Source: Actinomycetota bacterium
GTDB lineage: Bacteria > Actinomycetota > Actinomycetes > Streptosporangiales > Streptosporangiaceae
Reading direction: 5' to 3'
Length of the DNA stretch: 62,109 nucleotides
NCBI GenBank assembly: GCA_027314515.1
Contig: DAHVAR010000032.1
Coordinates: 1 to 62,109, forward strand
Shown: one piece after another, positions 33,919 through 36,784 of the stretch
Layout: the number at the start of each line of letters is the position of its first letter
Numbering within the stretch: the stretch's first letter is position 1
The notes under the pieces: generated by a model
The model's database searches: none
Told to the model about the DNA's origin: nothing
The model's input: the letters and a program-made list of their open reading frames with translations, nothing else
Program-made: the position numbers and the translations under genes

Positions 33919-35013
33919 TCAGCCGCGGAGGTAAATGCCCCGGAGCCGGCCCACTTCGGCGATCCGCCGCTCAGCGAGGCGGTCCGCCGCCACGGCAGGC
34001 GGAACTCCGTCGGCGTCTGCCGCAGCCAGGATCTCCCTCGTGGTGCCCAGGATCTGCGCCGCCCTCGCCTTGGCCCGGTCGAAGTTGAATCCGTGCAGTT
34101 CATCAGCGACCTGGATCACCCCGCCAGAGTTCACCAGGTAATCCGGAGCGTACACAATGCCCAGGTCAGCCAGCACTTTCTCGACCCCTGGATGAGCCAT
34201 CTGGTTGTTCGCCCCGCCGCAGATGATCTTAACGCCCCGGTCGCCGAGGGCTGCCGCCGTCTCGTCGTCGACCGCGCCGCCAAGAGCACAGGGTGAGTAC
34301 ACGTCAAGCGGCCTGCGCAGCAAGTCCGCCCGGCTCGGCGCGACAGCCACCTCGTGATGCTGGGCGCGCACGCGCTCCACCGCCGGCTCGCTGGTGTCGA
34401 AGATGACGACCCTGGCGCCATCGGAGACCAGGTGGTCGACAAGCCGGTGGCCGACTTTGCCGACGCCCTCGATGCCGACAGTCCTGCCATCCAGGCTCGC
34501 GGCGCCCCAGACGTGCTCGGCAGCTGCCCGCATGCCCTGATAGACGCCGAACGCCGTCAGCACCGACGAGTCGCCCGCCCCGCCGTTGGGCACCGTCCGG
34601 CCGGTGACAAACGAGCACTCGCGCGCGACGACGTCCATGTCCTCGCTGTCGGTACCGATGTCGCAGGCAGTGATGTAGCGGCCGTTGAGCGACTGGACGA
34701 AGCGGCCGTAGGCCCGCAGCAAGGGCTCGGACTTCAGCCGGTCCGGGTCACCGATGATGACTGCCTTGCCGCCGCCGAGATCGAGGCCCGCGAGCGCATT
34801 CTTGTAAGCCATCGCCCTGGACAGGTTCAGCACGTCGGCGAGTGCCGCGTCTTCGCTGGCGTAGGGATAGAACCGCGTTCCGCCGAGCGCCGGCCCGAGC
34901 GCGGTCGAGTAGATGGCGATGATTGCGCGCAGCCCGGACTGCGCGTCCTGACAGAAGACAACTTGCTCATGCCCGGCCGGCCCGTCGTGGTCGGCGCCAA
35001 AGACAGTGGTCAC
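33919..35013 (-). CDS. vdh: Valine/leucine dehydrogenase (Glu/Leu/Phe/Val dehydrogenase family)
   Basis: An NAD-dependent oxidative deaminase of branched-chain amino acids, 364 residues. Substrate/catalytic region: [20 protein letters not shown], then [22 protein letters not shown] with the catalytic Lys pair (Lys71, Lys83), and [17 protein letters not shown]. The NAD-binding fold starts at [30 protein letters not shown] and [12 protein letters not shown] complete the signature. GTG 35013 follows CAGGAG. The neighbourhood DUF3073, vdh, bldC matches Streptomyces. It could feed 2-oxoisovalerate to the E1/E2 complex at 21-25 kb. Confidence 0.93.
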
Positions 35014-35046
35014 CTGGTGGGCTCCTGCGATCGGCCCGCGTCATCG

Positions 35047-35076
35047 TTGACGTGGGATCGCCAACAAGCCTATATC
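35047..35076 (+). promoter_or_regulatory. Sigma-70-like promoter facing bldC
   Basis: TTGACG (35047-35052), an 18-bp spacer and TATATC (35071-35076) form the best housekeeping promoter match in the gap. It lies just outside the divergent vdh gene and points to the right, about 780 bases before bldC, with no gene between. Confidence 0.55.
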
Positions 35077-35108
35077 TGCGTCCCGGGTCGAAGGAGACTC
35101 ACGTGTGC

Positions 35109-35124
35109 CCTACCCGCGGGTAGG
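35109..35124. promoter_or_regulatory. 16-bp perfect palindrome CCTACCCGCGGGTAGG
   Basis: It lies 33 bases past the -10 box of the preceding promoter and 96 bases before vdh. A symmetrical 16-mer without loop is more like a dimeric repressor site than an RNA stem. The owner is unknown. Confidence 0.6.
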
Positions 35125-35859
35125 ACTTTTCCATCACGGGTCCGGCATGTCACGATTAGTCGTGGTGCGTATGCGCAAACAAGTGACGGATCTTTCGGCT
35201 GGTTTCGCGTCGGCCAGCCCATCGGTCAGGCGCGGCTGCCGACGGGGCGCTGGGACTGAGCGCAATCTTCCGGGCAAATATCTCGAATCAGATCATCTAC
35301 CCTCACTACGGGGATTAACCCAAGAGTCCGGCTCGTTGTACGGAAACAACGTGATTAGCGCGCATCGGGATATCTGCTACCAGCGTCGGCGAAGGCGCCG
35401 CGGCAGGCGGTTGGCAGCCCGGATCTCGTGATGAGCGCCGGATGGCGGGAGGGAGGATTACCGGCAGTCGCCCGCGTGGGCCTGCGTCGTCTCACGTATT
35501 GACCTGCGCCCCGAAGGTGCCGACTTGGAGGAGATCGGCAGCTCGGCAGGGCGGGCACAGGACCTGGCGGCAATCGAAGCTAAGTGTTCGATGGGAGGCG
35601 CGGATGACTTTTCCGAATCCGCCGCCGTTGCCACGGTGCGTGTCGCTAGAATCACTCAGCGTGACAAGTCGCGGACGGGGGCGTCGTGGCGACTCGCGAA
35701 GAATCTTTGCTCCCGGTTGTCGACGCGTTACCGCTGGTGATGGCAATATGGTCTGAGCGGACTATATAGGACATCCGAGGCAGGCTTCGCGAGAAGCCGC
35801 GAACAGCAAGAGAAGCAGGTACGGATCGCAGTACTGGTCCAGGAGGAGAGGCCGTCAAC

Positions 35860-36063
35860 ATGTCAGCACGTACACCAGAGGCTGAGCCGCTGCTTACGCC
35901 CGCAGAAGTTGCCACTATGTTTCGGGTTGACCCGAAAACGGTAACCAGGTGGGCAAAGGCCGGGAAACTCACGTCGATCCGGACCCTCGGCGGGCACCGC
36001 CGATACCGGGAGACCGAGGTCCGTGCCCTTCTGGCGGGCATTCCGCAGCAGCGCTCGGAGTGA
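35860..36063 (+). CDS. bldC: Developmental transcriptional regulator BldC (MerR-like HTH)
   Basis: A 67-residue single-domain winged HTH protein that in Streptomyces binds head-to-tail on direct repeats and sets the timing of aerial growth. LLTPAEVATMFRVDPKTVTR is the HTH and WAKAGKLTSIRTLGGHRRYR the wing; the sequence is nearly the Streptomyces protein. ATG 35860 follows AGGAGGAG (35841-35848) at 11 nt. It stands alone with a very long upstream region, which fits complex control. Confidence 0.95.
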   Translation: MSARTPEAEPLLTPAEVATMFRVDPKTVTRWAKAGKLTSIRTLGGHRRYRETEVRALLAGIPQQRSE

Positions 36064-36784
36064 GGCATGGCCGCGGTCCGGCATCACGGTGCCGGAAAGA
36101 CTGGAGCGCTCTGCTGCGCGATCAGTCGGCGGCCATTTGCCTGAGCAGTTTGGGGGGGTCGACCCCGGCAGCCAGCACACCGCATCGGGGGGCGCGCTTC
36201 GCGTTCGATGCGATGGTGAGCATTGGTCAATGGAAGCCGGGGTCGATCCGGCCTCCCGGGCAGGGCCTCCGGGAGCGCCACGAAGATCTTCTTAGGACAG
36301 GGAACGGGCTTTATTCAGCCCAGCGGTGAGGCTGCGATCAGCCCCCTGGGTGCCAGCGGTTCCCGGTAATCTCAACTGCCGTTGGCGGCGGCTCGGCCGA
36401 GTTGGCCAAGCCGCGCTCGTCAGCCCCACGCCGACGCGAGGGCTGCGCGCAACGACGCCGTCCGGCTCGTCGCGGCGAGGCGGGTGACGGAGCATCCGGC
36501 CGGCTCCGATGCGCCCGTTTCGGGAATCTCAGGTCACATCAGCAGCTGCCTGGCTAGCTGGCGTCACTAACTATTCGTAGTCTCTCAATAACTTTTCGTA
36601 ATCGCCACTCCTGATGCCTGGTCGCCGCGATACTGGGGAAACCCGTCGGCGCAAGCCGAGTGCCGCGCCGGCGGGATCGCGTCTTACATCGCCGTGACCA
36701 GCAGCATTTCCTGCGTCCGGCGGTGCCGGGGGATTCCCGCCTGCGGGCGGAAGTGTGCGGTGCTTTGGAGGGGAGGTGCGCACA
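36064..36784. other. 720-bp stretch after bldC without a supported gene
   Basis: No reading frame matches a family. The part 36560-36600 is locally AT-rich and has two similar words (TATTCGTAGT and TTTTCGTAAT). No tRNA, riboswitch or clear terminator recognised. Confidence 0.45.

Follow-up and report, generated by a model that had tools for sequence, protein, structure and literature searches.

In Streptomyces, BldC helps time the exit from vegetative growth. The bldC gene is reported there as a target of BldD (PMC4151990, PMC6428758), and BldD-(c-di-GMP) promoters carry a 13-bp box defined as TNAC(N)5GTNA, of which the crystallised example is TCACGCTGCGTGA (PMC4151990). According to PMC6344877 the S. 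coelicolor regulon of the principal sigma factor HrdB includes bldC, and in most HrdB promoters the -35 element is absent or poorly conserved, while vdh has been placed in the bldC syntenic block of Streptomyces (PMC13118837). Among the closest published parallels to the conserved non-coding stretch considered here is one in S. clavuligerus, where a conserved intergenic region extends from bldC to a hypothetical gene in 36 of the genomes considered; the account of this region in PMC11678152 flags it as potentially peptide-coding and does not describe it as a leader RNA.

Across 41 Streptomycetaceae loci (L095, L098, L099, L101-L112, L114-L126, L128-L140) the sequence upstream of bldC (-260 to 0) is almost invariant, and a BldD-type box lies 254-258 nt before the gene in 40 of them. 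An inverted repeat, AGAACCGA/TCGGTTCT, is also seen in Streptomycetaceae just before the Shine-Dalgarno sequence. The locus analysed here, in a window of 62,109 nt (the whole stretch of DNA under study) from a member of the Streptosporangiaceae, has the same type of box but differs from Streptomycetaceae in that its family carries two, the first overlapping a conserved -10 element, and the block around them was not found in the Streptomycetaceae loci. The genes bounding the region are:

33919..35013, minus strand: vdh-type Glu/Leu/Phe/Val dehydrogenase, divergent from bldC (open reading frame; Pfam ELFV_dehydrog_N/ELFV_dehydrog)
35860..36063, plus strand: bldC, 67 aa (NCBIfam HTH_BldC, 108 bits against a cut-off of 77)

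The bldC product aligns end to end with PDB 6AMA, which we take to be BldC. The minus-strand dehydrogenase gene reaches to 35013 and bldC starts at 35860, confirming the 846-bp non-coding region to which the initial annotation drew attention. We favour, as probably the best explanation of this region, a principal-sigma bldC promoter repressed by BldD and followed by a conserved regulatory leader.

The predicted bldC promoter and its BldD-type boxes

A DNA search of 60 relatives placed the strongest conservation at the bldC end of the gap, not at 35047 where the initial annotation had set a promoter, and distant genera still match around 35639-35664. The control region of bldC probably corresponds to the conserved interval 35606-35860. 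Absence of sequence conservation, named in the initial annotation among the findings that would refute its reading, holds over most of 35014-35600 and fails for 35606-35860. The elements of the promoter are:

35606..35646, plus strand: conserved sequence 5' of the -10 box (77-sequence and 10-locus alignments)
35647..35652, plus strand: -10 box TAGAAT of the inferred bldC promoter (TANNNT in 77/77 loci; HrdB -10 rule, PMC6344877)
35652..35664, plus strand: predicted BldD box 1, TCACTCAGCGTGA, matching TNAC(N)5GTNA and lying over the expected start site (about 35658-35659)
35728..35740, plus strand: BldD-type box 2, TTACCGCTGGTGA, and/or RNA hairpin P1 (in 77/77 loci and also in L016)

The 77 loci are those left from 98 non-Streptomycetaceae loci with bldC after removal of 20 duplicates and of L016, which fell below a filter of at least 19/27 likeness to the box 1 block (a further locus, L009, is without bldC); boxes were then found by their own pattern. 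The -10 hexamer is TAGAAT in 69, TAGACT in four, TAGGAT in two, and TACAAT and TATAAT in one each, so that all 77 (L016 being left out of this count) have the TANNNT of principal-sigma (HrdB) promoters; inspection of the window sequence by eye revealed no recognisable -35 (TTGAC-like, at 16-18 nt). Box 1 overlaps the last T of the -10 in 77 of 77 distinct relatives, and the bldC start site would lie near its centre. Both boxes are present in all 78 distinct relatives examined (the 77 plus the filter-dropped L016), where chance, judged from base-shuffled upstream sequence, would supply about 0.046 boxes in 260 nt. Because the 77 loci were chosen by likeness to the box 1 block, which mostly reads CGTGTCGCTAGAATCAC..AGCGTGAC in these distinct non-Streptomycetaceae loci, counts of box 1 lean upward, and the per-position invariance of the block arises by construction and is not evidence. 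The start-to-start distance between the boxes is 75-80 nt in 62 of the 77 (range 73-112). The crystallised BldD box is one base from TCACGCAGCGTGA, the second commonest form of box 1 (21/77), and two bases from the box 1 of the window (13/77). The strict BldD pattern has a central CWG, which box 2 of the window lacks.

The same genome encodes BldD, identified by the NCBIfam TransRegBldD equivalog (286 bits, cut-off 250) and by Pfam BldD-like_C (127.3 bits). Its first 71 residues align end to end with PDB 2EWT, which we take to be the S. coelicolor BldD DNA-binding domain, and both halves of the protein align with solved chains, presumably those of the BldD DNA-binding and c-di-GMP-binding domains. 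A box at the promoter and a BldD with both DNA-binding and C-terminal domains are thus found in one genome, consistent with BldD binding and repression at boxes 1 and 2 in this organism. Genome-wide, the strict BldD pattern occurs at 15 sites versus six for the control; a rough look at the open reading frames near the other 14 strict sites, made without family search, found no classical BldD targets. A separate TNAC(N)5GTNA box, TTACGGACAGTGA, stands about 40 nt before bldD itself (L146, 1999-2011) and fits autoregulation.

Structure and distribution of the predicted leader

From the centre of box 1 to the bldC ATG the median distance in the 77 loci is 199 nt (range 178-360), predicting a leader of about that length with the following features:

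35659..35859, plus strand: inferred 5' leader of the bldC mRNA, about 200 nt (box 1-to-ATG spacing; covariance model R1)
35746..35767, plus strand: hairpin P2, ATATGGTCT-GAGC-GGACTATAT (compensatory changes, variable loop)
35769..35776, plus strand: near-invariant segment GGACATCC (GGACATC in most aligned leaders)
35783..35798, plus strand: candidate hairpin P3, GGCTTC-GCGA-GAAGCC (these letters in only 21/64 aligned leaders)
35823..35840, plus strand: possible hairpin P4, GGATCG...TGGTCC, ending one base before the Shine-Dalgarno sequence
35842..35848, plus strand: Shine-Dalgarno sequence GGAGGAG

The 77-sequence alignment is strongly conserved over much of 35706-35778 and again between 35822 and the ATG. 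Structure was assessed in an alignment of 64 of the 77 leaders, from which four with long insertions (L054, L055, L067, L083) and nine near-duplicates (L002, L020, L042, L046, L069, L072, L076, L087, L097) were left out. In P2, changes that keep pairing are seen (TGGT/ACCA, TGAT/ATCA, TGGC/GCCA), and all six counted pairs form in 42 of the 64 leaders, with just one to four of the six in L017, L018, L019, L021, L027, L113 and L127; the loop is 3-6 nt long in 41 leaders and 16-19 nt in 23. The TATATA noted earlier near the bldC end of the gap is present (35763-35768) and forms the 3' side of this conserved hairpin. P4 lies 1-4 nt from the Shine-Dalgarno sequence in the 64 aligned leaders.

Taken as a four-helix structure, 92% of alignment cells pair, compared with 28-51% when the structure is slid; double changes occur in 40 cells, P2 accounting for 27, where shuffles give 9.4, with a covariation score of 0.147 against 0.113. 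Five pairs show a double change, a number reached by 53 of 500 shuffles, which ignore relatedness. Parsimony on the tree counts five double changes with pairing kept in P2 against 20 breaks, nine of these at the loop-closing pair; the RNAalifold covariation term is small (-0.66), and P1, P3 and P4 show little covariation. The folding energy of the window's leader is ordinary (z -1.03, with 31 of 200 shuffles as good). Of the properties expected of a cis-regulatory RNA, compensatory pairing is found, modestly and in P2 only, and stability above that of shuffles is not. Setting the persistence of P2 pairing through sequence change against the weak shuffle, tree and energy results, we find fair evidence that P2 is a real hairpin, the indications for P1, P3 and P4 as hairpins being only suggestive. 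No Rfam family matches the gap, even at E values up to 5.

The initial annotation had suggested either a very long structured bldC leader or an unrecognised RNA. What stands of this is a leader of about 200 nt, conserved in the family, with one compensatory hairpin and no Rfam counterpart; the 780-nt leader starting from 35083 is not supported, given the conserved -10/BldD-box promoter at 35647-35664 and the poor conservation of the 5' part of the gap.

Much of this conservation could also be read at the level of DNA only, the apparent leader then being a cluster of protein sites (two BldD boxes, perhaps with BldC repeats) whose inverted repeats are operators, and the RNA having no role. In favour of this reading, P1 falls on a BldD-type box, BldC targets its own gene in S. 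venezuelae (PMC6428758), and the folding energy is ordinary. However, P2 pairing survives sequence change while its loop falls into either of the two length classes, which is unlike an operator of fixed geometry, and P4 keeps its place within a few nucleotides of the Shine-Dalgarno sequence. An explanation in terms of DNA sites only is possible, though we consider it doubtful, and we retain the BldD-repressed promoter with a regulatory leader as the preferred reading.

A covariance model (R1) built from the 64 leaders matched 145 of 150 genomes of the family and all 68 of its genera, these matches including the sequences from which R1 was built, among them L026, an order match outside the family. 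The family genomes without a match are G111, G118, G142, G164 and G174, all but G118 having a weak best bldC match. In the order R1 matched 38 of 41 genomes (0/3 in family f3), and in the class sample 28 of 296, all 28 belonging to the window's own family. Among 36 fetched R1 loci, 33 abut bldC or its paralogue, two (L175, L176) lie about 180 nt from bldC as the upstream pieces of a split leader, and one (L149) has no bldC. L175-L178, from two genomes of one genus (G147, G126), show two separate partial R1 matches before the same bldC, pointing to a large insertion inside the leader.

The window's genome yields a strong R1 match, a weak one of 24.8 bits in front of a bldC paralogue, and a third (L149, E 1.9) that is taken as chance. 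The paralogue is 88% identical to bldC (G000 contig 185, 40588-40785, minus strand; locus L148). GTGATGCCAAAAT and ATATGGGACATCCGT of the bldC leader model recur in the leader of this paralogue, which was left out of the structure evidence because its P1 and P2 pairs are broken.

The bldC leader resembles cis-regulatory 5' leader RNAs such as riboswitches and attenuators in being a conserved untranslated leader with a compensatory hairpin and a near-invariant segment, and in having a possible hairpin adjoining the Shine-Dalgarno sequence. It differs from them in that it matches no Rfam family, presents no recognised ligand or terminator, covaries modestly, and is seen only before bldC and, in degraded form, before one paralogue. 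Among the papers surveyed by title and opening, none describes a bldC leader RNA, which appears to be undescribed.

The vdh-proximal part of the gap

Towards vdh the gap shows little conservation beyond an element on the vdh side and pieces of a lost gene, and 35014 to about 35600 is the vdh-side spacer plus, probably, the remains of that gene. Its features are:

35047..35076, no strand assigned: TTGACG-18-TATATC; the minus-strand reading holds TAGGCT (35072-35067), a TANNNT facing vdh
35109..35124, no strand assigned: perfect 16-bp palindrome CCTACCCGCGGGTAGG, not conserved
35120..35345 (limits approximate), plus strand: probable decayed start region of a middle gene (blastn of relatives' gaps to L036/L050; start-region comparison)

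The first of these had been put forward as a good sigma-70 match facing bldC. Its parts are present as described (TTGACG at 35047-35052, 18 nt, TATATC at 35071-35076), but only 9 of 12 bases agree with the consensus, and it is one of 13 promoter pairs of at least this grade in the window (both strands, spacings 15-19); a promoter scan of 34500-36300 in which the -10 had to end in T found none. A sigma-70 promoter at 35047-35076 giving a 780-nt bldC leader or a separate RNA would account for the retention of TTGACG, followed after 17-18 nt by TAT, in all seven aligned loci of the window's type (six of its genus and L006 from a neighbouring genus). In these same loci, however, the plus-strand -10 hexamer never carries T at its sixth position, whereas the minus-strand TANNNT facing vdh is kept in all seven and also in L036 and L050, and a similar vdh-side element occurs in L016, where the gap is without the middle gene. 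On these grounds we assign the element, provisionally, to vdh. As the stretch from there to 35600 is moreover poorly conserved and partly deleted in L002, we regard this distal-promoter model as very unlikely, and reject the site as the bldC promoter in favour of the -10/box 1 promoter.

A GTTGAC(G/C)CGGGAT-like element near vdh, at 35047-35072 in the window, is also seen in L016, L032 and L038, in several lineages with or without the middle gene, and is a possible vdh operator.

The 16-bp perfect palindrome and the hairpin said to follow the distal promoter are likewise present (35109-35124, and CACGA-TTAG-TCGTG at 35151-35164) but not conserved. In L002, which is the nearest relative (95-96% identical), one palindrome base is changed, and a 137-nt deletion beginning in its right arm removes the hairpin; the palindrome is absent from all eight other aligned loci, and for this lack of conservation it was rejected as an operator. 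Perfect palindromes of 16 bp number nine in the window; Markov simulations average 3.5, and the largest of 30 also gives nine. One terminator-like site is found at the palindrome where 0.9 are expected. The far-upstream promoter and palindrome are little beyond chance, and neither they nor the hairpin form the bldC control region.

That no gene lies between the proposed distal promoter and bldC is correct for the window, but a gene is found there in 110 of 139 loci (a set not de-duplicated), 97 of them located by motif search and 13 more, intact, by a profile, which also added L014 as partial. Open frames of this middle gene run from about 285 to 366 aa. An example is L061:2751-3662, whose product begins near VLPYAAYLRVYEPL; the one member tested has no Pfam or NCBIfam match. 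The gene is absent from the readable gaps of the window's genus (L001, L002, L003, L005, L007, L008, L010). The gaps of L006 and L007 align at the DNA level (60-62% identity, E 3e-9 and 2e-12) to the vdh-gene spacer of L050 and about the first 150 nt of its gene; the window itself has at best a short DNA match, of 35 nt (77%, E 0.004), to an intact start region. The 35151-35164 hairpin sits on the former start region, where the old GTG start codon aligns at 35162-35164. Protein-level traces are not significant (best profile score 2.8; shuffle 95th percentile 0.5, maximum 5.6), and so the DNA alignments of relatives carry the conclusion that the 5' half of the gap probably holds the decayed start of the middle gene.

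Proposed regulation of bldC

That the conserved stretch is instead a small upstream coding sequence is hardly credible and is rejected. In its favour, 70 of 77 leaders have an ATG overlapping the end of box 2, and the region next to bldC in S. clavuligerus is scored as able to encode 113 residues (PMC11678152). However, that frame meets a stop at 2 to 39 codons in 57 leaders and is open to bldC in 20, box 2-to-ATG lengths show no preference among the three frames (28, 25 and 24), and no one frame is open in more than 32 of the 77.

In the preferred model of a BldD-repressed promoter with a regulatory leader, bldC would be transcribed from a principal-sigma promoter about 200 nt before its start codon, with the -10 TAGAAT at 35647-35652 and the start at about 35658-35659. 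During vegetative growth BldD with c-di-GMP would occupy box 1, over the end of the -10 and the start site, and repress bldC, assisted by box 2 at about +70 to +82. Release of BldD would then yield an mRNA with about 200 nt of conserved leader, in which hairpin P2, and P4 next to the Shine-Dalgarno sequence, may tune translation or stability of the BldC message. A bolder proposal, which we hold to be unlikely, is that the leader, standing before bldC in nearly all sampled Streptosporangiaceae genomes (in the GTDB sense), is a new class of cis-acting RNA, signal-sensing or protein-binding, adding a second, post-transcriptional developmental checkpoint to that of BldD-(c-di-GMP).

While bldC is already known as a BldD target in Streptomyces, our analysis suggests that the same control operates in another large actinomycete group, in which two boxes stand in fixed order. 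The leader RNA is apparently new. It is kept in nearly all sampled members of the group, and P2 together with the possible hairpin at the ribosome-binding site provides the exact bases to mutate.
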